Below, piece by piece: positions 1,089 to 53,515 of a DNA stretch of 55,445 nucleotides; the first letter of the stretch is position 1, and every line of letters starts with the position of its first letter. A program made the position numbers and the translations under genes. The stretch is taken from contig JACZJQ010000214.1 in assembly GCA_014860455.1 (NCBI GenBank), forward strand, positions 1 to 55,445, in the 5' to 3' direction. A model generated the notes under the pieces. The model did no database searches. It saw nothing but the letters and a program-made list of their open reading frames with translations, and was not told where the DNA came from. This DNA comes from Bryobacteraceae bacterium. GTDB taxonomy: Bacteria > Acidobacteriota > Terriglobia > Bryobacterales > Bryobacteraceae.

Positions 1089-1200
1089 GTATGGATTGCC
1101 CGCTACTGGCCATCGTACGGCGTCGGGGCCCGCAGGTCAATCAAATTAACCTGGAAATGTTTCGACGGGGTGACTCGGGGTTCGTTAACATGAGAACCGC

Positions 1201-1920
1201 ATGGACGTGATAGCGGGGATACACCCGGTGAGGGAAGCACTGCGCGCCGGGAGGCCGCTGGAGCGGATTTGCCTGATCAAGGACGCGCGGTCGCCGAGGC
1301 TGGAGGAGATTGTCGCCCTGGCGCGTAAGACGAAGATTCCATTGAGGTTTGAGGCGAAGGAATCGCTTGACAGGATGGCTCCGGGAGCGCCGCATCAGGG
1401 GGTGGTGGCCTACGGCGCGGCGGCGAAACATGCGCAACTGGAGGATTTCCTGGAGCGGGAGGGGATGCTGGTGCTGCTGGACGGGGTGGAGGATCCGCAC
1501 AATCTGGGAGCGATCGTGAGGACGGCTCATGCGGCGGGTGCGCTGGCGGTGGTGGTGGGCGAACGGCGGTCGGCTCCGTTGAGCGAAACGGCGGCGAAGG
1601 CGGCGGCGGGTGCGCTGGCGCTGTTGCCGGTGATCAAGGTGACGAATCTGAACCGGGCGATCGAGAAGTTGAAAGACGCACGGTGGTGGATTTACGGGTT
1701 GGACGAGCGGGGCAAGACGACGCATTGGGAGACGGAATTCGAAGCGCGGACGGTGCTGGTGCTGGGGGGTGAGGGGCACGGACTGCACGAGCAGGTGAGG
1801 CAGAAGTGCGACTTCCTGCTGCGGATTCCGATGGCCGGGGCGGTGGCGTCGCTGAACGTGAGCGTTGCGGCGGGGGTGGCGCTATTTGAGTGGCGGAGAC
1901 GGGCCGGGATCCCCGGTTGA
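1201..1920 (+). CDS. rlmB: 23S rRNA 2'-O-methyltransferase RlmB / TrmH (SpoU) family
   Basis: A 239-residue SPOUT-class methyltransferase that adds a 2'-O-methyl group from SAM to an RNA ribose. In the RlmB branch the target is G2251 of 23S rRNA. The N-terminal substrate-binding domain (DVIAGIHPVREAL) is present. All three SpoU motifs are visible: NLGAIVRTAHAAG, VLGGEGHGL, and IPMAGAVASLNVSVAAG, the last forming the trefoil-knot SAM site. Length and domain order fit RlmB; other TrmH-like targets are possible. It opens a plus-strand run and lies 20 bases before the gamma-glutamyltransferase gene. Confidence 0.9.
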   Translation: MDVIAGIHPVREALRAGRPLERICLIKDARSPRLEEIVALARKTKIPLRFEAKESLDRMAPGAPHQGVVAYGAAAKHAQLEDFLEREGMLVLLDGVEDPHNLGAIVRTAHAAGALAVVVGERRSAPLSETAAKAAAGALALLPVIKVTNLNRAIEKLKDARWWIYGLDERGKTTHWETEFEARTVLVLGGEGHGLHEQVRQKCDFLLRIPMAGAVASLNVSVAAGVALFEWRRRAGIPG

Positions 1921-1940
1921 CAGCGGTACAATCAGAATTC

Positions 1941-3608: not shown

Positions 3609-3615
3609 ACTGAAG

Positions 3616-4437
3616 ATGCAACGCGCAATATCGACGCACCTGCTGGCCCGACACCGGCTGAACACGGTGTGGCTGGACAGGATCTGGAACGCGGGCATCC
3701 CGCTGGTGGAGATTTTCTGCGCGCGGGAGCATTTCGATTACCGCGACAGTTCGCAGGTGAACGAGGTGGCGTACTGGTTTGGCGACGCCCAACTGAAGGC
3801 GCATTCGCTGCACGCGCCGATGTTCAACGACGACTGCTGGGGGAAGACGGGACCGGGGGCGGTGATCGACATTACGGAAGTGTCGAAGCCGAAACGCATC
3901 GCGCATGTGGATGAGATCAAGCGGGCGATTGAGGTGGCCGACAAGATCCAGTTCCGGTATCTGATCCAGCATCTGGGCGTGGCCGGGCAGGAGTATGACG
4001 AGGCGCGGCTGGAGGCGGCGTTCAATTCGCTGGAAGAGCTGCACCTGTTTGCGGCGCACAGGGGCGTGAGGATACTGCTGGAGAACATTCCGAGCGCAAT
4101 CTGCACGGCCGAGCGGCTGTCGTATTTCGTGGACGCGATGCACCTGGACATGGGGTTTTGCTACGACATCGGGCACGCGCATCTGAAGGGCCGCTTCGAG
4201 AAGGAGTTTGCGACACTGGCGCCGCGCGTCCGGTCGCTGCACGTTCACGACAACGACGGGGTGGAAGACCGGCACTTGGCGCCGGGGTTGGGGACGATCG
4301 ATTGGGGCAAGGCGATGGCCATGTTCCGCACGCGCCAGGACCAGTATCCGCTGTTGCTTGAACTGAAAGACCCGGGCACGTCGGCCAACCCGCTGGACGT
4401 GGTCCCGGCGGCATTCGAGAGATTGGAGAAGCTGTAA
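3616..4437 (+). CDS. Sugar phosphate isomerase/epimerase-like TIM barrel
   Basis: A 273-residue protein of the xylose isomerase-like TIM-barrel superfamily (AP endonuclease family 2 fold). Metal-ligand-type segments include HSLHAPMF, the E of LLENIPS, DMGFCYDIGHAHLKG and SLHVHDNDG. Members isomerise or epimerise small sugars or act as endonuclease IV. The specific substrate is not evident, and there is no neighbouring sugar pathway to suggest one. The start at 3616 is preceded by GAACTGAAG and lies 7 bases after ggt. The in-frame extension upstream overlaps ggt and was rejected. The stop is 3 bases before asnS, so it is probably cotranscribed. Confidence 0.75.
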   Translation: MQRAISTHLLARHRLNTVWLDRIWNAGIPLVEIFCAREHFDYRDSSQVNEVAYWFGDAQLKAHSLHAPMFNDDCWGKTGPGAVIDITEVSKPKRIAHVDEIKRAIEVADKIQFRYLIQHLGVAGQEYDEARLEAAFNSLEELHLFAAHRGVRILLENIPSAICTAERLSYFVDAMHLDMGFCYDIGHAHLKGRFEKEFATLAPRVRSLHVHDNDGVEDRHLAPGLGTIDWGKAMAMFRTRQDQYPLLLELKDPGTSANPLDVVPAAFERLEKL

Positions 4438-4440
4438 ACC

Positions 4441-5754
4441 ATGTCAGAGATTCCCCGCATCCGGATCACCGATGCAGCAAAGTACGACGGCCAGACGGTG
4501 GAGATCGCCGGATGGCTTTACAACCTGCGCAAGTCGGGCAAGATCATCTTCCCGCTGGTGCGTGACGGCAGCGGAATAATCCAGTGCGTCGGCGTGAAGG
4601 CGACGATGCCGGAGGAGCTGTTCGAGACGCTGAAGCATTTGACGCAGGAGTCGTCGCTGATTGTGCGCGGCAAGCTGCGGGCCGAGCAGCGGGCGCAGGG
4701 CGGCTATGAGCTGGATCTTGAGTCGGCTGACGTTGTGCAGCGGGTTCCGGAAGAGACGCCGTATCCGATCACGCCGAAGGAGCATGGCACGGAGTTTCTC
4801 TTCGACAAGCGGCACCTGCATCTGCGGAGCCGCAGGACGCATGCGGTGATGCGGGTAAGGCACGAGATCATCAAGGCGATCCGGGATTACTTCGATTCAA
4901 ACGGGTTCACGCTTGTCGATACGCCGATCTTCACGCCGGCGGCGTGCGAGGGGACGACGACGCTGTTCGAGGTGGATTACTTCGAGGATGAGAAGGTCTA
5001 CCTGACGCAGTCGGGGCAGTTGTACAACGAAGCGACGGCGATGGCGCTGGGTAAGGTGTATTGCTTCGGGCCGACGTTCAGGGCGGAGAAATCGAAGACG
5101 CGGCGGCATTTGACCGAGTTCTGGATGGTGGAGCCGGAGATGGCTTACGCCACGCTGGAAGACGTGAAGGACGTGGCCGAGGGGCTGATCTGTTTTGTCG
5201 TGCAGAGGGTGCTGGAGAACCGGCGGACGGAACTGGAGACGCTGGAGCGCGACATCACGAAGCTGGAGGCGATCAAGGCGCCGTTCCCGAGGATCAGCTA
5301 CGACCAGGCGGTGGAGATATTGAAGCGCAAGGGCAGCGAGATTGAGTGGGGCGGCGATTTTGGCGGCACGGACGAGACGTTGCTGGCCGAGGAGTTTGAC
5401 CGTCCGGTGATGGTGGACCGGTATCCGACAGAGGTGAAGGCGTTCTATTTCGAGACCGATCCGGAGCGGCCGGAAGTGGCGCTGGGCGTGGACGTGATTG
5501 CCAGCGAGGGCTATGGCGAAGTGGTGGGCGGCGGGCAGAGGGCGCATTCGCTGGAAGTGCTGGAGCAGAGAATCCGGGATCACAATCTGCCGCCGGAAGC
5601 GTTTGACTGGTATCTGGACCTGCGGCGGTATGGGTCTGTGCCACATGCCGGGTTCGGCATGGGCGTGGAGCGGACGGTGGCCTGGCTGTGCGGGCTGGAC
5701 CACATTCGCGAGACGATCGCGTTTCCGAGGATGCTGTACAGGACGCGTCCGTAA
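4441..5754 (+). CDS. asnS: Asparagine--tRNA ligase
   Basis: A 437-residue class II aminoacyl-tRNA synthetase charging tRNA-Asn. The N-terminal OB-fold anticodon-binding domain ([15 protein letters not shown]) is followed by the catalytic domain. Motif 2 reads [19 protein letters not shown] and motif 3 reads [20 protein letters not shown]. The RAE-x-S-x-T-x-RH pattern and EFWMVEPE are AsnRS-like rather than archaeal AspRS-like. A direct enzyme means Asn-tRNA need not be made by amidation in this organism. The length fits the family. It is followed by a strong GGAGG ribosome site for the arginase gene. Confidence 0.9.
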
Positions 5755-5763
5755 GGAGGCAGC

Positions 5764-6696
5764 ATGGCGAAGAAGAGACAGCCGGCGGGTCCGGCGGTGG
5801 CGATTGTCGGCGCGCCGCTGGATCTCGGGGCCGGACGGCGGGGCGTGGACATGGGTCCGTCGGCGCTGCGGACGGCGGGGCTGAACGCGAGGTTGTCGGC
5901 GCTGGGCTACAGGGTGGAAGACCTGGGCAATGTGCAAGTGGAGCAGCAGGAGTCGTCGACGCCGGGTCCGAGGAATGCGCGGTATCTGCCGGCGATCGCT
6001 GCGACGTGCCAGGAGCTGGCTGACCGGGTGGAACGGGCGGCGGACGAGGGCAAGATCCCGCTGGTGCTGGGCGGCGACCATTCGATTGCGGTAGGCACGG
6101 TGAGCGGCATGGCCGAATCGATGAAGAAGCGCGGCCAGAAGCTGGGCATCATCTGGATGGACGCGCATACGGATATGAACACGCCGGGGACGTCGCCGTC
6201 GGGCAACGTGCACGGGATGCCGCTGGCGTGCATTATCGGGACGGGTCCGAAGGCGCTGACGAATTTGAACGGCTGGTCGCCGAAGGTGGATGCAAAGAGT
6301 GTTGTGCTGATCGGCATTCGGGATGTGGATCTGGATGAGCGGCCGATGGTGAGGCGGTCTGGCGTGCGGGTGTTCACGATGAGGGACATCGACGAGCGCG
6401 GGATGACGGCGGTGATGCACGAGGCGCTGGCGGTGGCGGGCGAGGGGACAGGCGGCGTCCATTTGTCGCTGGATATGGACGGGGTTGATCCGCGCGAGGC
6501 GCCGGGCGTTGGGACGCCGGTGCGAGGCGGGTTCAGCTACCGCGAGGCGCACCTGGCGATGGAGATCATCTGCGACTCGCGGCGGATGCGGTCGATGGAA
6601 GTGGTGGAAGTGAACCCGATTCTGGACGATGCCAACCGCACGGCGCTGCTGGGCGTGGAACTGGTGCTGTCGGCGATGGGAAAGAGGATTCTGTGA
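5764..6696 (+). CDS. rocF: Arginase
   Basis: A 310-residue ureohydrolase splitting L-arginine to ornithine and urea. The binuclear manganese-site motifs are all present: GGDHS, DAHTDMN and LDMDGVDPREAPGVGTPV. The last has the arginase-type tail; agmatinases differ around GT. NVHGMPLA is also arginase-like. The start is fixed by TAAGGAGGCAGCATG just after asnS. The stop overlaps the ddl start by four bases (GTGA), which suggests coupled translation. Arginine biosynthesis genes sit about 43 kb away in the same window, so synthesis and breakdown are both encoded. Confidence 0.88.
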   Translation: MAKKRQPAGPAVAIVGAPLDLGAGRRGVDMGPSALRTAGLNARLSALGYRVEDLGNVQVEQQESSTPGPRNARYLPAIAATCQELADRVERAADEGKIPLVLGGDHSIAVGTVSGMAESMKKRGQKLGIIWMDAHTDMNTPGTSPSGNVHGMPLACIIGTGPKALTNLNGWSPKVDAKSVVLIGIRDVDLDERPMVRRSGVRVFTMRDIDERGMTAVMHEALAVAGEGTGGVHLSLDMDGVDPREAPGVGTPVRGGFSYREAHLAMEIICDSRRMRSMEVVEVNPILDDANRTALLGVELVLSAMGKRIL

Positions 6697-7673
6697 GCAG
6701 ACTGAAAGTGGCTGTGCTCTACGGCGGGCGTAGCGGCGAGCATGAGATCAGCGTGCGCAGCGCGAAATCGGTGATTGAGGCGCTGGATCCGGAACGGTAT
6801 GAGGCCGTGCCGCTGTTCATCGACAAGGAAGGGCGGTGGGAGCCGAGGCCGATCGCTCCGGCGCCGGGCGCGAATCCGGGCATCGACGTGGTGTTCCCGG
6901 TGCTGCATGGCACGTTCGGCGAAGACGGCACGGTACAGGGGTTGCTGGACCTGGCGGGATTGCCGTATGTGGGCGCGGGGGTGTTCGCGTCAGCGGCGTC
7001 GATGGACAAGGACCACTTCAAGAAGCTGTGCGCGGCGCGGGGATTGCCGGTGGTGGAGTGCGTGGTGGTGCGGGGCGCGGATGCCGACGTGAAGGCGATC
7101 GTCGAACAGATGCCGTTGCCGGTTTTTGTGAAGCCAGCGAATTTGGGTTCGTCGGTGGGGATATCGAAGGCGAAGGACGAGTGGTCGCTGTCGGTGGCCA
7201 TCGCCGAGGCTGCGCGGTATGACAGCAAGGTGATCATTGAGCGGGCGATCACGGGGCAGGAGATCGAATGCGCTGTGCTGGGCAACGACGATGCGAAGGC
7301 GTCGACGCCGTGCGAGATTCTGCCGTCGCGGGAGTTCTACGACTACGAAGACAAGTATCTGCTGGACGCAGCGCGCATCGAACTGCCGGCGCGGTTGAGC
7401 GCGGAAAAGACGGCCGAGGTGCAGCGGTTGGCGGTGGAGTGTTTCAAGGCGGTGGATTGCACGGGCATGGCGCGGGTGGATTTCTTCGTCGAAGAGGGCA
7501 CGGGCAAGGTCTACATCAACGAGATCAATACCATTCCGGGGTTCACGTCGATCAGCATGTACCCGAAGATGTGGGCACACGCCGGGCTGCCGATGGCGAA
7601 ATTGATCGACCGGCTGATTGAACTGGCGCTGGAACGCCACGCGGCGCGGCAGGCGCTGCGATACGAGCGTTGA
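6693..7673 (+). CDS. ddl: D-alanine--D-alanine ligase
   Basis: A 326-residue ATP-grasp enzyme joining two D-alanines for the peptidoglycan precursor. The sequence shows the N-terminal YGGRSGEHEISVRSA motif, the ATP-grasp segment FVKPANLGSSVGISKA, and the C-terminal EINTIPGFTSISMYPKMW that carries magnesium and substrate ligands. The GTG start lies in a 4-base overlap with the arginase stop. The stop shares one base with the next ATG. The tight packing argues that ddl is expressed from the upstream run rather than with other cell-wall genes, none of which are nearby. Confidence 0.93.
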   Translation: MSRLKVAVLYGGRSGEHEISVRSAKSVIEALDPERYEAVPLFIDKEGRWEPRPIAPAPGANPGIDVVFPVLHGTFGEDGTVQGLLDLAGLPYVGAGVFASAASMDKDHFKKLCAARGLPVVECVVVRGADADVKAIVEQMPLPVFVKPANLGSSVGISKAKDEWSLSVAIAEAARYDSKVIIERAITGQEIECAVLGNDDAKASTPCEILPSREFYDYEDKYLLDAARIELPARLSAEKTAEVQRLAVECFKAVDCTGMARVDFFVEEGTGKVYINEINTIPGFTSISMYPKMWAHAGLPMAKLIDRLIELALERHAARQALRYER

Positions 7674-9148
7674 TGCGGTTGGCGGCATTCATCCTGGCGC
7701 TGATTGCGCTGCCGGTGGCGGCCCAGTCGCCGCTACCTGATACGGTGGAGCTTGAGGCTGAACTCGGGCGGCTGGTGAACATTTTCACGCTGGTGTCTGA
7801 CAACGCCGCCGAGGCGCAGACGGCGGAGCGGCTGATTTACGCCGGCGCGCTTCCGGGGATGCTGGCGAAGCTGGACCCGCATTCGGCGTTCTTCGACCGG
7901 GGCCAGTTTGAGCAGTTGCAGCAGATGCAGACGTCGACGGTGAAGGGGTTCGGGTCGATCGTGAGCGTGCTGCCGGGAAGGGTGATCGTCCTGCAGGTGC
8001 AGCCGGGGGCGCCGGCCGAGAGAAACGGGTTGGCGCCGGGCGACGAGGTGATGGCGATCAACGGCATCGGGCTGGCAGGGCTGGAGATCGAGCAGTTGGT
8101 GCAATTGCTGGGCATGGCGAGGCAGCAGCCGGTGCAGTTGCAGATCCGGAGGCCGGGCACGGCGGGGCTGCTGACGTTGACGATGACGCCTGCGGAGTTG
8201 CAGTCGCCGAGCGTGGACCGGGTGTTCATGGTGCGGCCGGGCATCGGGCACGTGCGGGCGAACAGCTTTGGGGATGGCACGGCGAAGGAGATCAAAGAGG
8301 CGATCGAGAAGCTGGGCGGGGCGAAGTTGAAGGGGCTGGTGCTGGACCTGCGCGGCAATCCGGGCGGTGTACTTTCATCGGCGCTGGAGACGGCGGCGCT
8401 GTTTCTGCCGCCGGGGACGAGGCTGATCACGGGACGCGGGCGGGGCAAGGGGACGCAGGAGATCGACGTGCCGGCGGGGGGCGTGCCGTATGAGTTCAAG
8501 CTGGCGGTGGTGATCGACGCGAAGTCGGCAAGCGGGAGCGAGATTGTGGCGGGGGCGATTCAGGACAACGACCGCGGGACGGTGCTGGGCGAGACGAGCT
8601 ATGGCAAGGGGTTGGTGCAGAGCGTCTACCCGTTGAGCGATGCGACGGGATTGGCGCTGACGACGGCGTTTTACTACACGCCGAGCGGGCGGTCGATTCA
8701 GAGGCCGCTGCGGGAGACGGGTCTGCATCTGGAGGGGGGCGGGGCGCGGCCGGAGTACAAGACCAAAGGCGGACGGACGGTGAGGGGCGGGGGCGGGATT
8801 GAGCCGGACGAGATTGTGGGGCCGCAGATGGTGACGCGGTTCCAGGCGGTGCTGGAGGCGTCGGCGTCGTTCCATACGTTCGCGACTGAGTGGCTGAGAG
8901 GGAACCGGGCGGCGGCAACGCAGGGGATGGAAGTGACGCCGCAGATGATTGACGAATTCCAGGTGTTCCTTTCGCGGCGCAGCATCAGGCCGAACCTGAG
9001 CGAGTGGATCGCAGAGCGTCAGTACATCGCATCGCGGATGAAGCAGGAGATTCTGAATTTGGCTGTGAGCGTGGCCGCAGGCGATGAGGTGGAGGCGCAG
9101 CGGGACCCGGCGGTGCTGCGGGCGATCGGCGTGATTGAGAGACCCTGA
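7673..9148 (+). CDS. S41-family C-terminal processing peptidase with PDZ domain
   Basis: A 491-residue exported serine protease of the CtpA/Tsp family. It has a signal peptide (MRLAAFILALIALPVAAQ) and a PDZ domain around residues 100-175 (VLQVQPGAPAERNGLAPGDEV). The catalytic domain includes LDLRGNPGG, the nucleophile segment KSASGSEIVAGA and the general-base lysine in ETSYGKG. Members trim C-termini of periplasmic proteins. The ATG at 7673 shares its A with the TGA of ddl; a TTG one codon earlier is possible. The natural target is unknown. It ends 4 bases from the convergent stop at 9153. Confidence 0.88.
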   Translation: MRLAAFILALIALPVAAQSPLPDTVELEAELGRLVNIFTLVSDNAAEAQTAERLIYAGALPGMLAKLDPHSAFFDRGQFEQLQQMQTSTVKGFGSIVSVLPGRVIVLQVQPGAPAERNGLAPGDEVMAINGIGLAGLEIEQLVQLLGMARQQPVQLQIRRPGTAGLLTLTMTPAELQSPSVDRVFMVRPGIGHVRANSFGDGTAKEIKEAIEKLGGAKLKGLVLDLRGNPGGVLSSALETAALFLPPGTRLITGRGRGKGTQEIDVPAGGVPYEFKLAVVIDAKSASGSEIVAGAIQDNDRGTVLGETSYGKGLVQSVYPLSDATGLALTTAFYYTPSGRSIQRPLRETGLHLEGGGARPEYKTKGGRTVRGGGGIEPDEIVGPQMVTRFQAVLEASASFHTFATEWLRGNRAAATQGMEVTPQMIDEFQVFLSRRSIRPNLSEWIAERQYIASRMKQEILNLAVSVAAGDEVEAQRDPAVLRAIGVIERP

Positions 9149-9152
9149 ACGG

Positions 9153-10604
9153 CTATTTGGGTTCGGCCATGAGGATCTGCGGGACCGAGAGGGCGCGGGT
9201 GGTGCGCAGGTTGTATTTGTCGATCAGGGGATAGTCGTCGCTGGTGAGCAAGTAGACGTCGAGGCCGGGGCGCATTTCGTGGTGGACGGCGTATTCGAAA
9301 GCCTTGGTGTCGAGGGTGGTCTGGTAAAAGACGACGGCGGGCTGGAGCAGCGAGGAGATGCCGGCGGTTACGAGTTTGCCGCGTTTAAGGCCGCGCTGGT
9401 TGAGTTCGACGACGAGGTCGCGGGTTTCGGCGTCGAAGCGCCACATGCGGAAATAGCTCGTCTGGAGTTGCAGGGCGAATGAAAGGATGAGCGCGGCAGC
9501 GAGTGTGCCGGCGGCGATGCGCAGCGCAAGGGCGGAGCTTGCCGCGAGGCCGAGCAGGACGAGGGCGAACAGGGGGAAGTGGTAGATGCCGGTGCGGTCA
9601 GTGGGGAAAGGCGTGCCGAGGGCGAGGTGCATGGCGGAGACGGCGAACCAGGCTCCGAGGGCTACGGCGGCGGCGATCAGGATATGGGGCGCGGTGGTGC
9701 GGCGCTGCCAGCCGAGGACGACGCCGAGCAACAGGACGGCGGGGTAGACGACATAGCCGAAGGCGCGTTTGAGGGGTTCGTTGCCATCGATGGTGGCGTT
9801 GAGTTCGCGGATGCCTTCGTTGTGGCCGAGGGTGTTGTCGGCGAGGTCGGCGAGGCTCAAGGCGAGGGTAGGCTGGCCGACGTAATAGAGGCCGGGTTTC
9901 ATCATCTTCTTCACGGGGGCCATAAAGAAGAGCAGAACCATGACGGCGGCGAAGGCGGCGAGGAGATCGGTGCGGCGGGCCAGGGGTTTGGCGGGAGTTT
10001 CCACACGTTTCTTCTTTATCGTATGGACGGGAGGCGGGGCGGGCAGCGTCCAGATAAGCAGGAACAGCGCGGCGAGCAGTGCGGCGGGGATGACGAAGAC
10101 GAAGTTGGATGCGATGGAGAGTCCGAGGGCGGCGCCGGCGGTACGGATGGTTTTGCGGTTGGAGTTGCCGGAGAGCAGGGCGAGGAGGCGTTCGAAGGCG
10201 AAGAAGAAGAAAGCGAGGGCGAGGCCGTAGCCGCGGGCGGCGACCTGGAAGTCCATGACCAGAGGCGATGCGCCCAGGAGGATGACGGATGCGGGGGCGA
10301 GCCAGGAGTGGCCGAAGAGGCGGGCGGAGAGGCGGGTGAGCGTCCAGAGATAAAGGGCGGCGCCGGCGAGAGCGGGGAGGCGGAGAGTGAATTCGAAGAC
10401 GCCGGCGATGGAGGTGATGAAGCGGACGAGCCATGTGTGGAGAATGTGGTGGTTGGCGTCGTAGGTTTTGAGGATGGAGGAGAAGGGGGTGACGATGTAG
10501 AGGCGCCAGGTGATGGCTTCGTCGAAGGTGATGGATTGGGTCCAGGCGCGGAACAGGGCGATGGCAAAGAGGAGAACGGCGAGGGCGGCGGCGAGCTTTT
10601 TCAT
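9153..10604 (-). CDS. GT39-like multi-pass membrane glycosyltransferase
   Basis: A 483-residue integral membrane protein with many hydrophobic segments and a likely GT-C fold. The first extracytoplasmic loop carries SITFDEAITWR, matching the Asp-Glu (DE) signature of the GT39/ArnT/PMT superfamily, followed by KTYDANHHILHTWLVRF. Such enzymes transfer sugar from a polyprenyl-phosphate donor to lipids, glycans or proteins outside the membrane. The ATG at 10604 overlaps the upstream gene's stop as ATGA. An in-frame extension upstream is Pro/Arg/His-rich and was rejected. The acceptor is unknown. It is the last gene of a three-gene minus-strand operon. Confidence 0.75.
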   Translation of the reverse strand: MKKLAAALAVLLFAIALFRAWTQSITFDEAITWRLYIVTPFSSILKTYDANHHILHTWLVRFITSIAGVFEFTLRLPALAGAALYLWTLTRLSARLFGHSWLAPASVILLGASPLVMDFQVAARGYGLALAFFFFAFERLLALLSGNSNRKTIRTAGAALGLSIASNFVFVIPAALLAALFLLIWTLPAPPPVHTIKKKRVETPAKPLARRTDLLAAFAAVMVLLFFMAPVKKMMKPGLYYVGQPTLALSLADLADNTLGHNEGIRELNATIDGNEPLKRAFGYVVYPAVLLLGVVLGWQRRTTAPHILIAAAVALGAWFAVSAMHLALGTPFPTDRTGIYHFPLFALVLLGLAASSALALRIAAGTLAAALILSFALQLQTSYFRMWRFDAETRDLVVELNQRGLKRGKLVTAGISSLLQPAVVFYQTTLDTKAFEYAVHHEMRPGLDVYLLTSDDYPLIDKYNLRTTRALSVPQILMAEPK

Positions 10605-11959
10605 CTCTGTTTGCGTCTGGGATCGGGGGCGGTGGCAGTGGTGGAGGGTGTCCGCAGGAAGAGGAACACGGTGAAGATGAGCAGCGGCATCATCTGGAGG
10701 ACGATGCGGCCGGCGGCGGTTGACAGGCGCCATTGGAGACCCGAAGTGGTCATCCAGAAAGCGCCGAAATAGCCGGCGGCGAGCAGGGCGAGCGGAATTG
10801 CGGTCCAGATCTGGCGAACGGGGCGGCGAACGCCAAGCAGTGCAACGGCGATTCCAAGCATCAGGATCGGGTGCGTGGGGAAGTGGCCGAGGTTGAGAAG
10901 TTCTCTACCGATGGAGAAGAGGACGGACGGGACGCGTCCGACGTCGGCGAGGTGAGTGAAGCTCCATTCCTTGAACGGCGGGGCCATGAGGGCTTTGAAG
11001 AGGGCGACGATGAGCGCGGCGGGAACGGCGGCAAGCAGCCAGGGGAGGGCGGATTTGCGGGCTGCGATGACGATGGCGAGGGCGAGTCCGGCGGCGAAGA
11101 CGAGACCTTCGTCCTTGGTCCAGCCGGCCAAGGAGGCGAGCAGTCCGGATAGGGCGAGCAGTGGCTTGTCCCAATCGTCGCCGGCGGCGCGGACGGCGCA
11201 CCAGAGCGCGCCGAGCATGAAGAGCGAGAGCGGGATGTCGGCGTATTGGGCCATGGCATACTGCCAGAAGGTGACGGTGGACAGGAGCACCAGCGCGGCC
11301 ATTGCGCCGGTGGCGGCGCCGCGGAGAGACCACAGGCCGCCGAACATGAGCAGGACCAGGGAGATTGTCGAGGCGGCGTTGGCGCTGGCCGGCGCGGCGA
11401 TATCCCCGGGGCGGCCGGTCCACGCCCATGCCTTGGCGATCACGCTCGACCACAGCAGCGGGTATTCGGGATGGCTGCGGCCGATCAGTTCGGGCGCGGC
11501 GGCGCCACTCCAATGGCCGCCGGAGGCGAGGAATTTGGCGCGCATGTTCCATATCGCCCAGGCGTCCCAGTCGCCGTGGGGCAGGGCGGCGGCGCCCTGG
11601 ACGATGGCTCCCAGCAGAAATGCGCCGCAGATGGCCAGGGCGATCCAAGCGATCCAGGCGAAGCGGAAGCCGGATGGTTTTTCGACAGGGGCTGCGGGTT
11701 GGCGGTCGCGTTTCCACCACAGGGCGGCGCCGGCGGCGAGCCAGATGAGGTCGGCGAGAACGGCGGCGGGGAAGGGATTCAGTCCAGCGGCTAGGAAGGC
11801 GAAGTAGAGGCAGGAACTGCCGCCCGCGCCCACAGGGAAGGCCAGAGGAATTTCGAGAAGCCAGCGCGAGGGGCCGTGAGCGCGACGTCCGGCGGTGAGG
11901 GCGGCCACCCAGAACCAGCCGGCGGCCCAGGCGATGAGCAGCGGCGCGGCGGCGGTCAC
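10601..11959 (-). CDS. Multi-pass membrane protein, glycosyltransferase-like
   Basis: A 452-residue integral membrane protein with about ten hydrophobic segments. A loop reading GDWDAWAIWNMRAKFLASG, followed by SHPEYPLLWSSVIAKAWAW, resembles the acidic loop and PEYP-type motif of GT-C/GT39-like proteins. That assignment is weaker than for its downstream neighbour. The GTG start forms a 4-base GTGA overlap with the 147-residue gene before it, and its own stop overlaps the next gene's ATG. The three genes are therefore almost certainly one transcript. Substrate and acceptor are not evident. Confidence 0.65.
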   Translation of the reverse strand: MTAAAPLLIAWAAGWFWVAALTAGRRAHGPSRWLLEIPLAFPVGAGGSSCLYFAFLAAGLNPFPAAVLADLIWLAAGAALWWKRDRQPAAPVEKPSGFRFAWIAWIALAICGAFLLGAIVQGAAALPHGDWDAWAIWNMRAKFLASGGHWSGAAAPELIGRSHPEYPLLWSSVIAKAWAWTGRPGDIAAPASANAASTISLVLLMFGGLWSLRGAATGAMAALVLLSTVTFWQYAMAQYADIPLSLFMLGALWCAVRAAGDDWDKPLLALSGLLASLAGWTKDEGLVFAAGLALAIVIAARKSALPWLLAAVPAALIVALFKALMAPPFKEWSFTHLADVGRVPSVLFSIGRELLNLGHFPTHPILMLGIAVALLGVRRPVRQIWTAIPLALLAAGYFGAFWMTTSGLQWRLSTAAGRIVLQMMPLLIFTVFLFLRTPSTTATAPDPRRKQR

Positions 11960-12399
11960 TTGCCGGCTCCGCGGCGGTAGAGCACGACGCCCCGGCCGAG
12001 ATCCGCCACCAGTTCCAGGCCCTGGACCTTCCCGATGCCGGCGAAGTCGCGGGGGGCGTTAAAGTCGCCCACCCAGTATTCGAGGTCATTCCGGTTCTCG
12101 TCGAGAACAAGGATCTGCGGCGCGAGGGCGAACTGCGCCGAAGCCAGGGCCGCCTGCTGTGCGACCGATCCTGGGGTACGGTCGTTGAAGTAGCCGATAC
12201 GCGGCGCGTTGCCTGTCAGGCGGGGGATCCCGGCGAAGCGTTCGACCAGAGAACCGATCTGTTGAGCATCGCCTGATTGCTCGGCCACCTTTTCGAACAG
12301 GCCGTAGTATTCGATGGACGCGCCGGCTGCGAGGGCCGAGACGATGGCCACGGCGGCGATGGCGCGCGCGCCGGTGACGGTAGTTGTTTGGGTGGACAC
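11956..12399 (-). CDS. Hypothetical single-pass membrane protein heading a GT39-like operon
   Basis: A 147-residue protein I do not recognise. One hydrophobic helix (about residues 12-32, GARAIAAVAIVSALAAGAS) is followed by a soluble part that would face outward. That part contains IGYFNDRTPGSVAQQAALASAQ and LELVADLGRGVVLYRRG. It resembles the soluble tail some membrane glycosyltransferases carry, so it may be a split-off accessory domain for its partners; that is inference. It is the first gene of the trio, overlapping the next by four bases. The 31 bases upstream include TTTTCTAAAGGTG. Confidence 0.6.
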   Translation of the reverse strand: MSTQTTTVTGARAIAAVAIVSALAAGASIEYYGLFEKVAEQSGDAQQIGSLVERFAGIPRLTGNAPRIGYFNDRTPGSVAQQAALASAQFALAPQILVLDENRNDLEYWVGDFNAPRDFAGIGKVQGLELVADLGRGVVLYRRGAGK

Positions 12400-12430
12400 C
12401 TTTAGAAAATTGTAGCGTTGACAGCCTGCG

Positions 12431-12805
12431 TTACCGCAACGGGCGGGGACGGCGGTCGAACCTTGCGCGGCGGAGTTCGGCGCGGCGGACCTGGGCTTCG
12501 TTCATACCGAAGTAGTGGGCGACCTCATGCCAGACGGTCTCTTCGACAAGGCGGCGCAGGTGGGAGGGGGTGCGGGCCATGCGCTCGTGGGGACCCTGGT
12601 AGATGGTAATGCGGTCGGGCATGGCGGCGAACTCGGCAGTGCTGCGTTCGGTGAGAGGGCGGCCCTGATAGAGTCCGAGCAGGCCGGGTTGCGGGGGTTC
12701 GGGCTCGACGACGAAGAGGACGTTCTTGAGCCGCCGCCTGAACGCGGGGGCGACGACGCGTTTGAGCGACTCTTCGACCAGATTGTCGAACTCCTCTGAA
12801 CTCAT
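12431..12805 (-). CDS. Small zincin-type metallopeptidase family protein
   Basis: A 124-residue protein with a complete HEVAHYFGMNE motif (HExxHxxGxxE class) near its C-terminus. This is the zinc site of the short Zincin_1-type proteins (PF06262 family). The N-terminal half matches that family in layout: helical start, then LKNVLFVVEPEPP and GLYQGRPLTER. Members are cytosolic and poorly characterised; protease activity is generally assumed from the motif. There is no signal peptide. It is divergent from the [2Fe-2S] gene across 75 bases. Confidence 0.8.
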   Translation of the reverse strand: MSSEEFDNLVEESLKRVVAPAFRRRLKNVLFVVEPEPPQPGLLGLYQGRPLTERSTAEFAAMPDRITIYQGPHERMARTPSHLRRLVEETVWHEVAHYFGMNEAQVRRAELRRARFDRRPRPLR

Positions 12806-12880
12806 GGTGCGGTCTGCCCTATTGTAAAGAGATGCGCGAGGGGGCCGCTCCGGCGCCCGCCGCGAATCTGGGAGAAAGAC

Positions 12881-13258
12881 ATGGAAGACACGTCAAAGGC
12901 CGCACGGATCGCCGACTCGCTTGGCATCGGCAAGCTCAAGCGCCACATCTTGCTTTGCGCGGACCAGACGAAGCCGAAGTGCTGTTCGAAGGAGGCGGGG
13001 CTGGCGTCGTGGGAGCGGCTGAAGAGCAGGCTCGCCGAATTGGGGATGGACAAGGGCGAGGGCGCAGTGTTCCGCACCAAGGCCAACTGCCTGCGGATCT
13101 GCGAGCAGGGTCCGGTGGCGGTGGTGTACCCCGAGGGCATCTGGTATCACAGCGTGACGCCGGAGGTGGTTGATCGCATCATCGAGGAGCATCTGGCGGG
13201 CGGGCGCCCGGTGGAAGAGTTCATCCTGGCGCGGGACCCGCTTGCCCAGGGCGAGTAG
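12881..13258 (+). CDS. Thioredoxin-like [2Fe-2S] ferredoxin
   Basis: A 125-residue cytosolic protein of the thioredoxin-fold [2Fe-2S] ferredoxin family, related to the NuoE C-terminal domain and Azotobacter FeSII-type proteins. Cysteines are placed as expected: LLCADQTKPKCC at the N-terminal site and NCLRICEQGPVAVVYPEG at the second pair. The C-terminal YHSVTPEVVDRIIEEHL helix is also characteristic. The start has a good ribosome site (GGGAGAAAGACATG). The electron partner is not encoded nearby. Its stop is one base from the stop of the convergent TPR gene. Confidence 0.85.
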   Translation: MEDTSKAARIADSLGIGKLKRHILLCADQTKPKCCSKEAGLASWERLKSRLAELGMDKGEGAVFRTKANCLRICEQGPVAVVYPEGIWYHSVTPEVVDRIIEEHLAGGRPVEEFILARDPLAQGE

Positions 13259-13259
13259 T

Positions 13260-13625
13260 CTACTGCGGAATGGGCAGGCCCATCTGCTTGTAGATGGACT
13301 CGATGAGCTTGATCTTGGTGGTGGCGTCCTTGTTCGCCTTGTCGTACTTGAGGACATTGCGATACTGGACGAGCGCCGGGCGGTACTTCTGGCGAGGCGG
13401 CAGTTTTTCGTTGAGAAAGAAGCTGTCGCCGTATTTGAGGTGGGCGTTGGCGAGCGCGGTGCGCGCTTCGGCGCCGGCGGAAGCCTGGATGGGTTCGAGA
13501 ATGGCGATGGCTTCGGTGAACTTGCCGGCTTTCACCTTGGCCTGCGCTTCTGCGATTTTGGGGTTGGCGGCGGCGGTGAGCAGACAGGCTAACGCCACGG
13601 TTGCACAAATGGTTTTTCCCAGCAT
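13260..13625 (-). CDS. Small exported TPR-like protein
   Basis: A 121-residue protein with a signal peptide (MLGKTICATVALACLLTAAA). It is followed by helical repeats resembling tetratricopeptides: AQAKVKAGKFTEAIAILEP, then ALANAHLKYGDSFFLNEKL and ALVQYRNVLKYDKANKDAT. The start at 13625 is chosen because it yields the signal peptide; the longer open frame upstream overlaps the cmk start and looks like noise. TPRs bind proteins, and the partner is unknown. The 84-base gap to cmk contains a GC-rich inverted repeat (GCGCG/CGCGC). Confidence 0.7.
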   Translation of the reverse strand: MLGKTICATVALACLLTAAANPKIAEAQAKVKAGKFTEAIAILEPIQASAGAEARTALANAHLKYGDSFFLNEKLPPRQKYRPALVQYRNVLKYDKANKDATTKIKLIESIYKQMGLPIPQ

Positions 13626-13709
13626 ATGGGTCCATTGTAGCGGGCGCGCCCCGGCGCGCGCTTTCGATAGACTGGAACGGATATCCCTGTCGAGCCTGAA
13701 AGAGTCCCT

Positions 13710-14386
<677 letters not shown>

Positions 14387-14390
<4 letters not shown>

Positions 14391-15796
14391 AAGACCTGCT
14401 CGTGATGAAGTTTGGCGGCACCAGCATGGGGTCTGCCGAGAGGATGATGGGGGCGGCCGCGCTGTGCGAGGAGCAGCACGCCAAGCGCCCTACGGCGGTG
14501 GTGGTGTCGGCGATGTCGAAGGTGACCGACCTGCTGCTGGACACGCTGCGCCATGCCGAAGGGGGCGACACGGGCGGCGTGGAGCGCAATCTGGTTGAAC
14601 TGGCGGCGAAGCACAAGATCTGCTGCGACGGGCTGCTGAAAGGCGCTGCCCGCGCGGCGACGCAGGTGGCTCTGGACGAGATCATCGCCGAGTTCGCACG
14701 CATCTCGAACGGCGTGCTGATGCTTGGAGAGCGGCCGCCGAAGTCGGTGGACGAAGCGATTGCGGTGGGCGAGCGGCTGAGTTCGACGCTGATCGCGGCG
14801 TATCTGTCGGCGAAGGGGATCGACGCCTTCGCCGTGAATGCGCGGGAGATACTGGTGACCGACGCGGTGTTCGGCAACGCGTCGCCGCTGATCGATCAGA
14901 CGCGCGAGAAGGCGCAGGCGATTCTGGGACCGGCGCTGGAGGCGGGCCGGCTCCCATTCATCACCGGCTTCAACGGCGCGACGCTGGACGGGCGGGCGAC
15001 AACGCTGGGGCGCGGCGGATCGGACTTTTCGGCATCGATTCTGGCGGCGGTGCTGGACGCGTCGGAGTTGTGGATCTGGACTGATGTGGACGGCATCATG
15101 TCGGCGGACCCGAGGCTGGTGAACGACGCCAAGGTATTGGGTGAGATCACCTATCGCGAGGCCGCTGAACTGGCATACAACGGGGCTAAAGTGCTTCACC
15201 CGCGGACGCTGGCGCCGTTGATGGAGAAGGGCATCCCGGTATGGAGCAAGAACAGCTTCAACCCGGATGTGCCGGGCACGCGGATTGTTGAAGACTCGCG
15301 CGACTCGGGCCGGGGTCCGAGGGCGGTGACGTCGATGACCAACGTGGCCCTGGTGTCGCTTGAGCCGGCCAGCGCGCTGCTCAGCGGGACGAAGGTGATG
15401 GCGCGGGCCATCGACGCGTTGGCGGCGACTAACGCCGAGGTGCTGGCTATGACGTCGTCCAGCTACCGCCAGAATTTCTGCTTCCTGATCCGGCAGAGCG
15501 AACTGCAGGCCGTCACGGAGCGGCTGGAGGAGTCTTTCTCTCTGGAGTTCGCGCACGGCTACATGCACCCGATCGATGTGGATCTGGATGTCGGCCTACT
15601 GGCCATAGTGGGCGAGGGGATGAAGGGCCTGGCCGGGTTGGCGGGGCGGATCTTCACGGCAATCAGCCGCGAGCAAGTGAACATAATCGCCATTGCGCAG
15701 GGGTCGAGCGAGTTGACGATCGCGATTGTTGTGCGCAAGGCTGGCGTGGAGAAGGCGGTCAGGGCGGTGCATGCCGAGTGCGGTCTCGGCGGGTAG
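14387..15796 (+). CDS. lysC: Aspartate kinase
   Basis: A 469-residue aspartokinase making aspartyl phosphate, the entry step to lysine, threonine and methionine. The N-terminus MKFGGTSMGSAERM is the kinase signature. The amino acid kinase domain follows (TGFNGATLDGRATTLGRGGSDFSAS and WTDVDGIMSADPRLV). Two C-terminal ACT domains (about residues 320-465) include INIIAIAQGSSELTIA-like sequence, here NIIAIAQGSSELTIAIV, and imply feedback control. The length suits the monofunctional LysC/ThrA-type kinases. The GTG start overlaps the cmk stop. The matching homoserine dehydrogenases are some 22 kb away. Confidence 0.92.
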
Positions 15797-49236: not shown

Positions 49237-49764
49237 CTAGTTCGGGTGAATCGAAGGGATCTGGATCAGTTCGGGCGATGGTGCGCCGATCCGGTCCAAC
49301 CGCGCACCCGGCTTCAGCGCCTTGACTACGGCGATCTCGTCGCAGGCCTGGAACTTCGGGCAACGCAGGCAGTCCTTCCATGCCTTCAATGGCAGTTCCT
49401 CCCGCCCGGCCTCCCGATAACCCATCTTGGCGAAAAACCCAGGGACGTAAGTGAATGCAAACACGACGTCGAGGTCAAATTCGCGAGCCTCGGCGTCGAT
49501 GGCGTCCATCAGTATCCTGCCCGCGCCGCTGCCCTTGGTCTCTGGCAAGACAGCCAGCGAGCGCACCTCTGCGATGGTGGGCCCATAGAAATGCAGCGCG
49601 GCGCAGCCCAGAACCCGCCCGCCGTCTTCCAGCACCGTGAAGTCGCGAACCCCTTCCGACAGCTCAAACTCGTTACGCGGCAGCATGATACCGTCACGCG
49701 CGTAGCCGTTGATCAGGGCCAGCATCGCCGGAATATCCTTCATCGTTGCCTTGCGCGTCGTCAT
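49237..49764 (-). CDS. Short N-acetylglutamate synthase (GNAT fold)
   Basis: A 175-residue GNAT acetyltransferase. The acetyl-CoA loop lies in LAVLPETKGSGAGRILMDAI (Q/RxxGxG/A type). After the GNAT core comes a cysteine-bearing tail, KDCLRCPKFQACDEIAVV, seen in the short amino-acid acetyltransferases that make N-acetylglutamate. The position two bases after argB and downstream of argC supports first-step arginine synthesis, with argB and argC as steps two and three. The start ATG at 49764 is preceded by the argB stop; the longer open frame lies inside argB and was rejected. Confidence 0.8.
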   Translation of the reverse strand: MTTRKATMKDIPAMLALINGYARDGIMLPRNEFELSEGVRDFTVLEDGGRVLGCAALHFYGPTIAEVRSLAVLPETKGSGAGRILMDAIDAEAREFDLDVVFAFTYVPGFFAKMGYREAGREELPLKAWKDCLRCPKFQACDEIAVVKALKPGARLDRIGAPSPELIQIPSIHPN

Positions 49765-49766
49765 CT

Positions 49767-50540
49767 TCAACCTTTGTACATCCGCGTTCCCGCGGGTTGG
49801 CCGGCAGAGAGCGTGTCCAGGATGTCCTCGGCCGCGCCGGGGGCGATGACCACCTCGCCCACCCCATGTTCCAGGGCGTCGCACGCGGCATTCAATTTCG
49901 CCTGCATCCCGCCCGTGGCGATCCCGTCGCGGATCAGCGCCTGGGCGTCGGACGAACTCAGTTCAGCCAAAGCCGTGCCGTCACGGCCGCGTACACCGTC
50001 CACATCTGTCAGGAAATACAACTTGTCCGCACCCCACCCCGCTGCACACGCCACAGCCATCTGATCGGCGTTGACATTATAGATAGCGCCACTCCGGTCG
50101 CCCGCCACGCAGGCAACCACGGGCAGGAAACCCGCCCCGCACAGCGTGTCGAGAATCTCCGGGTTCACCTTCGTTATCCGCCCCACCTGGCCCAGTTCGG
50201 GGTTCAACTGTTCGGCTTCCGCCAGCGCGGCGTCAATGCCGCTGATGCCCACGGCACGGACGCCTGCGGCCACCAGCGCCGAGGCCAGTTCCTTGTTCAC
50301 CGAACCCGTGAAAACCTTCAGCAGCGCATCGACCACATCAGGCGATGTCACCCGCAACCCGCCGACAAACTTGCTCTCGACACCCCGCTCCGACAGGAAG
50401 CGCGTCATCTGCTTACCCCCGCCATGGACCACCGTGACTTGTCCAGCCGATGCCTGAAGCCGAGCGATCTGTTGGCAAAGACGTAACTTCGACGCCGGAT
50501 CATCCAGCAGCGTCCCGCCCAACTTGACCAGGATCTTCAC
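49767..50540 (-). CDS. argB: Acetylglutamate kinase
   Basis: A 257-residue amino acid kinase phosphorylating N-acetylglutamate. Motifs are ILVKLGGTLLDDPASK, VTVVHGGGKQM, FVGGLRVTSP, and YFLTDVDGVRGRDGTALAEL with the later GGMQAKLNAA. The GTG start at 50540 forms a GTGA overlap with argC; the extension to 50564 would start inside argC. It lacks the N-terminal helix linked with arginine inhibition in hexameric NAGKs, so it is probably the arginine-insensitive dimeric kind, as in E. coli. Confidence 0.93.
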   Translation of the reverse strand: MKILVKLGGTLLDDPASKLRLCQQIARLQASAGQVTVVHGGGKQMTRFLSERGVESKFVGGLRVTSPDVVDALLKVFTGSVNKELASALVAAGVRAVGISGIDAALAEAEQLNPELGQVGRITKVNPEILDTLCGAGFLPVVACVAGDRSGAIYNVNADQMAVACAAGWGADKLYFLTDVDGVRGRDGTALAELSSSDAQALIRDGIATGGMQAKLNAACDALEHGVGEVVIAPGAAEDILDTLSAGQPAGTRMYKG

Positions 50541-51544
50541 AGCAGCCCCGCCGTTTCCGCCCATCCGAACATCAGGTTCATGTTCTGAACGGCCTGCCCC
50601 GCCGCGCCCTTCACCAGATTGTCGATAGCCGCCACAACCACGCCACGGCCGGTGGCCGGGTCGAACTTAAAGCCGATGTCGCAGAAATTCGTGCGCTGAA
50701 CCGCCCGCAGGTCGGGCACAACGCCGGGGGCATACAGCCGAACGAACGGTTCGTCACGGTAGGCGCTCTGATAGATCTGGGCCAGCGTGGAGGCGTCCTT
50801 GATGCCGGGCGCGCGGAAGTAAATGGTTTCCAGGATGCCCCGGTCGCACGGGATCAACTGCGCCGTGAAGCTGAACTCACCTTCGTCGAGGCCGGAGACC
50901 ATCAGCACTTCCGGCACGTGGCGATGGTCCAGGATCGAATACGCCGAGAAATTCTCGGTTACTTCGCAGTAGCTGGTCTTGAGACTGGGCTTGCGGCCCG
51001 CCCCGCTCACTCCGCTCTTTGCATCGCAGACGATGCCGGCGGCGCGGTCGATCAACCCCGACTGAACCAGCGGGCGAATGGCCAGATTCGCTGCCGTCGG
51101 GTAGCAGCCCGGATTCGAGAGCAACTGAGCCGCGGGAATCTGTTTCCGGTTCACTTCGGGCAGGCCGTAGACCGCCTTTTCCAGCCACGCGACGGCGGAG
51201 TGGGGCTCCTTGTACCAGCGGGTGTAGTTTTCGGCCGTGCGCAGCCGGAACGCCCCGCTCAGGTCGATCACCTTGATCCCGCGGTCCAGCAGCGGCGGGG
51301 CCAGTTCCATGGAGACCTCCGGCGGCGTGGCCAGAAAGACCGCTTTGATGGCCGAGGCCACCATGGCTTCGACGTTCGCGCCAATCCGCTCCGGCCCTGT
51401 GAAACCAATCGGTTGGGGCCGCTCGGAGGAGTCCTGGCGGTGCTCAAGCAGGATCGGCGTCACCTCGGGGTGACGCGAGAGGATTTGGACGAGGTCGACC
51501 CCGCTGTAGCCGCGGAAGCCGACGATGCCGACGTTTACGCTCAT
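50537..51544 (-). CDS. argC: N-acetyl-gamma-glutamyl-phosphate reductase
   Basis: A 335-residue NADPH-dependent enzyme reducing acetylglutamyl phosphate to the semialdehyde. The nucleotide loop is VGIVGFRGYSGVDLV, and the catalytic cysteine is in LLSNPGCYPTAANLA. VSGAGRKPSLKTSYCEV and HRHVPEV are further family markers. It opens the argC-argB-NAGS transcript. A perfect palindrome that looks like an arginine operator lies just upstream (51568-51595). argJ, argD, argF, argG and argH are not in the window. Confidence 0.94.
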   Translation of the reverse strand: MSVNVGIVGFRGYSGVDLVQILSRHPEVTPILLEHRQDSSERPQPIGFTGPERIGANVEAMVASAIKAVFLATPPEVSMELAPPLLDRGIKVIDLSGAFRLRTAENYTRWYKEPHSAVAWLEKAVYGLPEVNRKQIPAAQLLSNPGCYPTAANLAIRPLVQSGLIDRAAGIVCDAKSGVSGAGRKPSLKTSYCEVTENFSAYSILDHRHVPEVLMVSGLDEGEFSFTAQLIPCDRGILETIYFRAPGIKDASTLAQIYQSAYRDEPFVRLYAPGVVPDLRAVQRTNFCDIGFKFDPATGRGVVVAAIDNLVKGAAGQAVQNMNLMFGWAETAGLL

Positions 51545-51567
51545 TGCCCTTCCATGGTAGCAATGTG

Positions 51568-51595
51568 ATATTTATTCATCGCTATGAATAAATAT
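51568..51595 (-). promoter_or_regulatory. Putative arginine operator (ARG-box pair) upstream of argC
   Basis: ATATTTATTCAT (51568-51579), a CGCT spacer and its exact reverse complement ATGAATAAATAT (51584-51595) form a 28-base perfect palindrome in otherwise GC-rich DNA, 24 bases before the argC start. The central ATTCA and TGAAT are the facing halves of two 18-base ARG boxes (51563-51580 and 51583-51600), 2 bases apart. The outer halves (GTGAT, ATACC) are degenerate. ArgR/AhrC binding is the simplest reading. No argR gene is in the window. Confidence 0.6.
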
Positions 51596-51691
51596 ACCAT
51601 GGTTCGTCGAGCGGGGGAGTTCGTTTGGTTGCCGGTCAGAGACCGCCTACTTCGTGCGCGGCTCGATTTCCGGAGAGGCCCGTCTTCCCCC

Positions 51692-53515
51692 CTACTGCCG
51701 CAGCAGCGCCTTCAGCCTGGCTTTCTGCTCGGCCGATGCGTTGGGCGCCACTTCCAGATTCCACGACGGCGCACTCTGCTGGGCGATCGGCAACTCCAGC
51801 GTCATCAACACATCGCGGCGGGCGATCAGCAATTTTACCTGTTTCCGCTCTTTGTAGTAATCCAACCGCGCCGGCCACTGGTCCGCTCTCAGGCGGTAGT
51901 CCTCCACGGCGATGATTTCGTCGTCCACGTTCAACCCGGCCGCCCATGTCGGCGTGTCGCGCTGCACACGCGTCACCGTGATCCGGCCCGAAGCCGAGGA
52001 AACCGTTGCCCCGGTGGCAATGGCCTTGCGGTTCGACTGTGGGCGGAATCGCAAGCCGTAGTATTCCAGCATCTCCGAATAGTCGAGCTCCTTCGTGGTC
52101 TCCAGGACATCCTTGAACCAGCCGCTCAAATCCGTGCCGGCCACCTCCGACGCCGTGCGGCGGAACTCTTCCGGCGTGAACCCCTTGGCCCCGCCGTAGC
52201 GCTTATAAGCCAGCACCATCACGTCGTCCAGCGACTTAGCCCCGTTCGTGACCTTCCGGATTCGCGCATCCAGCAGCAGACCGATCACTTCGCCCTTCGT
52301 GTAGTAACTGATCGACGTGTTGCCCGAGTTCTCATTCGGGCGGTAGAGCTTGATCCAGGTGTCGAAACTGGAGGTCTCCACGGGTTGAACCAGCCGTCCC
52401 GGAGTGGTTTGAAGCTGTCCGATCGCCGACGACATCGCCCGCAGGAACTGCGCCTCCGTGGATAGTCCGGAGCGTGCCAGCGCCAACGGACCATAGTAAG
52501 AGGTCACCCCCTCGGCCTGCCACAGCGAACGGGTATAAACCTCGTTTTCGAAATCGAAGGGCCCGAGTTCGACCGGCCGCAGGCGCTTCACATTCCACAA
52601 ATGAATGTACTCATGGCTGACCAGCCCCAGCCACCCCTGCCGCGTCGGGCGCCGCGAGCGGGGCGCTGACGGATCGGCCCCACCGGGCGGCGCGTCATCC
52701 ACTCCCGCATAGGCCCAGCGGCTGGCATTCAGCCAGGTCGAGTTGCGATGCTCCAGCCCGCCGCCCGATTCGATCAGCATGTTGAAGAAAACGTACTTGT
52801 CATACGGCAACCCGCCCCACATGCGGCTGTATTCGGCCACAATCCTGGCCACATCGCGCGCCGATGCCGGACCGTCCCACATCGGCCCTTCGCCTTCGTT
52901 CACCAGGTAGTGTTTCTTGCCTTCAACGTCGAATTCATGAATCGGCGCATTGCCGGCGTAAATCGGGCAGTCCAGCAGTTCGTCGAAGTCAGCCGCAACG
53001 TAGGTGTTCGGTTCGCCCGGCTTCAACTTCATGCCGCTGATGTGTTTCTTCCACGCCGCGGGCAGTTCGACTGCAACCTCATACGGGCCCTGCTGCCGCC
53101 CCACCGGCGTCATGAAACACGGCGCGCCGTTCAGCATCGCGAATCCGCCATCCACCCAGTTGCCTTGAACCGACGCCTCATGCGCGTACACCTTGTACCT
53201 GAGTTCCACTCGCCGCGCCCCGCCGGTACGGACCAGCCAGCGGTTCTTGCGCGTCTTCTCCCACACGAGCGTTCGGCCGCCGCCCGTCGCCTCGAAGGCT
53301 TCCACATTGCGGGCGTACTCTCTCACCAGATACGACCCCGGCGTCCACACGGCCATGAACACCTCAACCGTCGGTCCCGTAGCCGGGATCGACGCCGAAA
53401 CTTCCAGGTAATGCGTATGCGGCGCCGGAAAGCGCAGCGTGTATCGGATCGGTTCCTGCGCCAGCGCCGGGATGGCGCACAGTGCGAGTGCGAAAAGAAG
53501 GGTACGGCGGGTCAT
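51692..53515 (-). CDS. M61-family metallopeptidase with PDZ domain, exported
   Basis: A 607-residue glycyl-aminopeptidase-like enzyme with signal peptide MTRRTLLFALALCAIPALAQ. The zinc site is in GLVSHEYIHLWNVKRLRP (HEYxHxWN), with the downstream glutamate in QAEGVTSYYGPL. A GGLEHRNS motif precedes it. The C-terminal PDZ domain contains RITVTRVQRDTPTWAAGLNVDDEI. The ATG at 53515 is chosen for the signal peptide; the longer open frame runs into trmFO. Divergent starts with trmFO are only 9 bases apart, so their promoters must lie inside each other's genes. Confidence 0.9.
   Translation of the reverse strand: MTRRTLLFALALCAIPALAQEPIRYTLRFPAPHTHYLEVSASIPATGPTVEVFMAVWTPGSYLVREYARNVEAFEATGGGRTLVWEKTRKNRWLVRTGGARRVELRYKVYAHEASVQGNWVDGGFAMLNGAPCFMTPVGRQQGPYEVAVELPAAWKKHISGMKLKPGEPNTYVAADFDELLDCPIYAGNAPIHEFDVEGKKHYLVNEGEGPMWDGPASARDVARIVAEYSRMWGGLPYDKYVFFNMLIESGGGLEHRNSTWLNASRWAYAGVDDAPPGGADPSAPRSRRPTRQGWLGLVSHEYIHLWNVKRLRPVELGPFDFENEVYTRSLWQAEGVTSYYGPLALARSGLSTEAQFLRAMSSAIGQLQTTPGRLVQPVETSSFDTWIKLYRPNENSGNTSISYYTKGEVIGLLLDARIRKVTNGAKSLDDVMVLAYKRYGGAKGFTPEEFRRTASEVAGTDLSGWFKDVLETTKELDYSEMLEYYGLRFRPQSNRKAIATGATVSSASGRITVTRVQRDTPTWAAGLNVDDEIIAVEDYRLRADQWPARLDYYKERKQVKLLIARRDVLMTLELPIAQQSAPSWNLEVAPNASAEQKARLKALLRQ

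Follow-up and report, generated by a model that had tools for sequence, protein, structure and literature searches.

A probable ArgR operator overlapping a predicted promoter ahead of the argC–argB–GNAT operon in Bryobacteraceae (Acidobacteriota)

Introduction

ArgR acts as a hexamer that, once loaded with arginine, occupies pairs of ARG boxes close to promoters (PMC5291005, PMC5839063). PMC5839063 places E. coli ARG boxes 3 bp apart and those of Bacillus AhrC/ArgR normally 2 bp apart, and PMC5291005 gives the Streptomyces ARG boxes as AWTGCATRWWYATGCAWT. The two papers also treat a Ser-Arg recognition motif and a GTIAGDDT motif as important for ArgR.

A keyword literature search for ARG boxes or ArgR in Acidobacteriota found no study of ARG boxes there, most subscription papers lying outside its coverage; the two papers it gave for ArgR deal, by their titles, with other subjects. 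A comparative study of ArgR sites reportedly appeared in 2001. Genetic tools are scarce for Bryobacterales, a group of soil bacteria. Here we analyze a site upstream of argC in a 55,445-nucleotide stretch of a Bryobacteraceae genome (GCA_014860455.1, contig JACZJQ010000214.1, positions 1 to 55,445; hereafter the window), together with 60 related genomes. An earlier note on the window had pointed out a palindrome at this place and likened it to a pair of ARG boxes.

Results

A perfect palindrome precedes the argC operon

The genes and the palindrome are located in the window as follows.

50537..51544, minus strand: argC, N-acetyl-gamma-glutamyl-phosphate reductase (NCBIfam TIGR01850, 376.7 bits, cut-off 233.6)
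49767..50564, minus strand: argB, acetylglutamate kinase (NCBIfam TIGR00761, 209.5 bits, cut-off 151.3)
49237..49884, minus strand: GNAT N-acetyltransferase ORF (NF005840, 179.6 bits over residues 40-190, above the cut-off of 154)
51568-51579 and 51584-51595, no strand: arms of the perfect palindrome ATATTTATTCAT-CGCT-ATGAATAAATAT (sequence read and repeat scan)

The operon had been annotated in the earlier note as argC–argB–NAGS. The first two names hold, both proteins passing their NCBIfam cut-offs, and the third gene is assigned here as GNAT, its resemblance to the NAGS models remaining below their cut-offs (TIGR01890, 80.5 bits against 202.85). Judged by its sequence, this GNAT is a probable N-acetylglutamate synthase, and its true start probably lies inside the ORF.

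The palindrome is exact over 12+4+12 bases at 51568-51595, as the earlier note had read it, and lies between argC and the end of a same-strand ORF (53755-51692). The distance to the argC start, given before as 24 bases, is 23 (51545-51567). When the arms are extended to 51563-51579 and 51584-51600, they are 88% complementary. The surroundings are indeed GC-rich, with 59-68% G+C in sampled 1-kb stretches of the window. No other perfect inverted repeat in the window has arms of 12 bases or longer around a loop no longer than 10 bases; ten dinucleotide shuffles of the window yielded one comparable repeat in total, so the palindrome by itself is only moderately surprising. The weight rests on its place, its ARG-box match and its conservation.

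Several further features were noted around the site. An additional exact inverted repeat, CCATGGTA (51552-51559) and TACCATGG (51595-51602), encloses the operator region; most relatives do not have it, and it was rejected as part of a shared element. A possible 12-codon leader ORF (51541-51579, minus strand) begins within the dyad and ends with a stop overlapping the argC start (ATGA). In the nearest relative (G003) this leader ORF recurs with GTG. Other relatives read differ; the ORF is probably a matter of chance. A dispersed repeat was rejected, the 18-base pattern being present once in the genome when up to 3 mismatches are allowed, and so was an intrinsic terminator, the scan giving only a weak one elsewhere, at 51608-51623 on the plus strand (1 against 0.4 expected). 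GC skew is strongly positive over positions 1-15000 of the window and near zero or negative beyond.

The palindrome lies within two ARG-like boxes

A symmetric ARG-box matrix was built from the best box pair of each of eight E. coli K-12 arg operators (16 boxes), the 18-bp boxes being those selected by score against the published consensus and not by footprints. Its best window pair is 51563-51600, with a gap of 2 bp, in agreement with the earlier reading of the inner halves as facing halves of two 18-base ARG boxes 2 bases apart. The pair scores 29.1 bits (9.2 + 19.9), and the next separate pair in the window 11.3; among 5000 dinucleotide shuffles of 51545-51640, none reached 29.1 and the best gave 21.0. 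An earlier, rougher matrix had picked the same site.

51583..51600, minus strand: upstream (promoter-side) ARG-like box ATGGTATATTTATTCATA, 19.9 bits, the window's top single site
51563..51580, minus strand: downstream ARG-like box GATGAATAAATATCACAT, 9.2 bits, 2 bp from the upstream box

The upstream box scores within the span covered by the 16 E. coli training sites (12.6-28.7), a range that is favoured because the same boxes trained the matrix, and the downstream box lies below the weakest of them. The site thus consists of two 18-bp boxes at ARG-like spacing that fit the ARG consensus, the second of them weakly. The earlier remark that the outer halves are poor and only the central dyad is conserved is incomplete: the upstream box scores well and the downstream box poorly, the outer half of the upstream box at argC fits an extended -10 element, and the outer halves at argF in relatives are ARG-like.

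The dyad is conserved upstream of argC among relatives

In the 61 genomes (the own genome and 60 relatives), argC was found in 59, and 58 upstream regions were usable, G018 providing only the gene end. A site was counted where at least 19 of the 22 core positions matched and the gap was 6 bases; by this measure 35 of the 58 regions, the own genome included, carry the dyad. The expected conservation before argC is thus found in most relatives of the same family. By group, sites occur in 31 of 34 regions of the same family (plus G014, with a 7-base gap), in both f2 regions, in none of 18 from the sister family f3, and in two of four from other families of the class. The dyad is absent from two same-family regions, G026 and G010; in G010 the pattern finds no site anywhere, although ArgR is present. 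The nearest relative shares 93% identity in ArgC.

The argC sites were numbered on the minus strand with the -10 hexamer at positions 0-5, so that the window coordinate is 51596 minus the position. Conservation of the core in the argC and argF alignments follows from how the sites were chosen, on that core; outer columns and flanks were unselected. At argC, no column between -45 and -5 or elsewhere outside the element exceeds 0.32 bits, against up to 2 bits inside it. Five of the 35 sites carry G at position 9, as in an ATGCA half.

The sister family f3 differs at this locus. None of its 18 argC regions (L034, L036, L038-L040, L042-L046, L049-L056) has the dyad, and no box pair there scores more than 15 bits, although its genomes possess ArgR. 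At argF, a box pair of 25.5-49.4 bits is present in all 18 (G040 and G047 included), one of the two boxes reaching only 6.1 bits in G047 and 2.4 in G048; a comparison stretch that has no argF (G010) gave -8.5. Several of the f3 argF sites show an ATGCA half.

The genome encodes ArgR and carries a second site at argF

The ArgR gene sought in the genome is present, as a single PF01316 match (E 4.2e-18), in the region of G000:C198:39379-39543. The protein has 144 aa and both the winged-helix and the C-terminal domain, aligns to ArgR structures over residues 3-141 (best E 6.9e-22), and is closest by sequence, among solved proteins, to 5cj9 and 1b4a, both named arginine repressor. Its ORF contains TLSRDLREM, with Ser-Arg in the recognition region, and GTIAGDDTVLI, with the C-terminal GTIAGDDT. 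ArgR was detected in 59 of the 61 genomes; the two remaining genomes are 84% and 64% complete.

A genome search with TWATTCAN6TGAATWA, the kind of check that the earlier note had proposed, hits two places only at up to 2 mismatches: argC (0 mismatches) and argF–argH–argR (2 mismatches). The second site, G000:C198:41937-41956, lies directly upstream of argF, which is followed by argH and argR; the genome thus has more than one such site, each in the promoter region of arginine genes. When up to 3 mismatches are allowed, the genome gives 88 sites and the control 64, and the weak sites are for this reason mostly noise.

Across 37 genomes of the family, 78 sites were found at up to 1 mismatch, against 8 with the reversed control. 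Among the matches listed, 22 exact sites comprise 16 before argF, 5 before argC and 1 before a GNAT gene, and many relatives have argF–(argG)–argH–argR behind the same dyad. The GNAT case is G020 (L106:404-423), whose genome yielded no argC: there the dyad directly precedes a GNAT like the operon's third gene. Four further exact sites include two before argF and one at a contig end, with letters identical to that genome's argF site. Beside the fourth (G023, L252:1276-1295) no arg gene was found; it is a second exact operator-like site near the argF operon, on the same contig.

The outer halves at argF are closer to ARG halves than those at argC: in 23 sites, the left half has T in 21, G in 19, T in 21, G in 19 and T in 21, and the right half A in 23, T in 22, T in 15, C in 23 and A in 22. 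Of 22 argF sites (one site, with too short an upstream sequence, omitted), 13 have a TTGAC that begins at -21 or -20; the 34 argC sites compared have none. The reading of TTGAC as a clear -35 was nevertheless rejected for argF: TTGAC to TGTAAT would span only 14-15 bases, which also leaves the argF -10 uncertain.

A predicted extended -10 promoter lies within the upstream box

51591..51599, minus strand: predicted extended -10 promoter TGGTATATT, within the upstream box (35-site alignment)
51583..51584, minus strand: predicted transcription start (promoter geometry, 7-8 bases past the -10 hexamer)

Among the 35 argC sites of the alignment, 32 have T at -3, 30 have G at -2, 27 have G at -1 and 34 have T at 0, and TATA[AT][AT] at 0-5 is nearly invariant. 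The ARG consensus has T at -2, G at -1 and A at 0. The argC sites therefore depart from it at -2 and 0, by exactly the bases that an extended -10 (TGnTATAWT) requires, and at -1, which is unconstrained in the promoter, the ARG base G is retained. The alignment contains no conserved -35, and a generic sigma-70 scan found no -35/-10 pair at the argC site, so a generic promoter of that type was rejected and the extended -10 reading comes from the alignment.

In 23 of 35 argC sites, a start codon in frame with argC follows the last core base of box 2, the downstream box, after 0-4 bases (after 0-2 in 19), in a count that went by frame alone and allowed stops between this codon and the protein match. 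For the window and its nearest relative, the distance is 21 bases.

Alternative explanations

Three other accounts of the dyad were weighed. A different repressor might bind it, the likeness to ARG boxes being superficial; in its favour, the outer halves at argC diverge from the ARG consensus, and of the two boxes the downstream one is weak. However, argF, in an operon whose last gene is argR, is preceded by the same frame, there with ARG-like outer halves, and in the outgroup G057 the second argC box is a complete TGAATAATTATTCA of 28.6 bits. We regard this account as very unlikely. Still less probable is a plain coincidence, either a chance AT-rich palindrome or a promoter that has no operator: one such palindrome did arise in the ten shuffled windows and the site resembles an extended -10, but a promoter accounts neither for the right half TGAATAWWTAnnCA, which is conserved, nor for the constant gap of 6 bases or the copies at argF, and we give this account almost no credence.

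The sequence would also allow a 12-pair stem with a 4-base loop, and hence an RNA element in the argC leader (a hairpin, attenuator or riboswitch). An Rfam search of 51400-51750 gave no match at E <= 1, and over the 35 sites the paired columns vary about as if independent, with the exception of pair 4/25 (21 matches against 16.2 expected); within the arms, G-U is limited to a single cell at 3/26 and another at 9/20, and the bases in the middle are unpaired. Moreover, a start between the arms would leave the transcript with one arm only. With neither an Rfam match nor convincing covariation, the hairpin or riboswitch was rejected; its probability lies between those of the other two accounts, close to negligible.

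Discussion

We consider it highly likely that 51563-51600 is the ArgR operator of argC–argB–GNAT, a joint reading that takes in paired boxes, a hexamer and an overlapping promoter. The ArgR gene and the dyad conserved before argC together support the earlier prediction that ArgR controls this operon, as far as comparison of genomes can indicate. When arginine is plentiful, one ArgR hexamer would bind the two 18-bp boxes, 2 bp apart. The upstream box would hold the extended -10, with transcription starting between the boxes; arginine-loaded ArgR would then cover the -10 region and the start site, exclude RNA polymerase and repress argC–argB–GNAT. Direct exclusion is the simplest reading because the boxes cover the predicted -10 and start site. 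We infer the promoter and the start site at argC, and likewise that ArgR binds there in dependence on arginine and represses the operon.

A further joint proposal, to which we give slightly less than an even chance, is that promoter, operator and translation start at argC merged within about 38 bp, and that f3 later dropped ArgR at argC and kept it at argF. In such a merged element, box 1, the upstream box, would also serve as the extended -10, the two boxes would flank the start of the transcript, and box 2 would reach with its outer end into the start codon. Box 2 running into the start codon would imply, in many relatives, a leader of about 20 bases that has no evident Shine-Dalgarno.

These results provide a sequence-based ArgR regulon of two operons, argC and argF, for Bryobacterales. 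At argC the regulator site and the promoter would share the very same bases, and the apparent loss of the argC operator in f3 offers a neat, testable example of regulon change. The general picture of arginine control is unchanged.

Taken together, the comparisons indicate that the argC site is very probably a familiar type of ArgR operator, now in Acidobacteriota (Bryobacterales). Like the E. coli ArgR operators (TNTGAATWWWWATTCANW), it has two 18-bp boxes before arginine genes with an identical half-site core, and the E. coli matrix detects it. The best-pair gap is 3 bp in seven of the eight E. coli operators and 2 bp at argR, the latter being the gap found at argC here; unlike in E. coli, the outer half of the upstream box here fits an extended -10. 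The ATGCA half of Streptomyces occurs in some relatives, at argC and at f3 argF, whereas the window's own inner halves are ATTCA/TGAAT. Bacillus AhrC/ArgR operators, from a different lineage, share the 2-bp gap of the argC site, a likeness judged on spacing.
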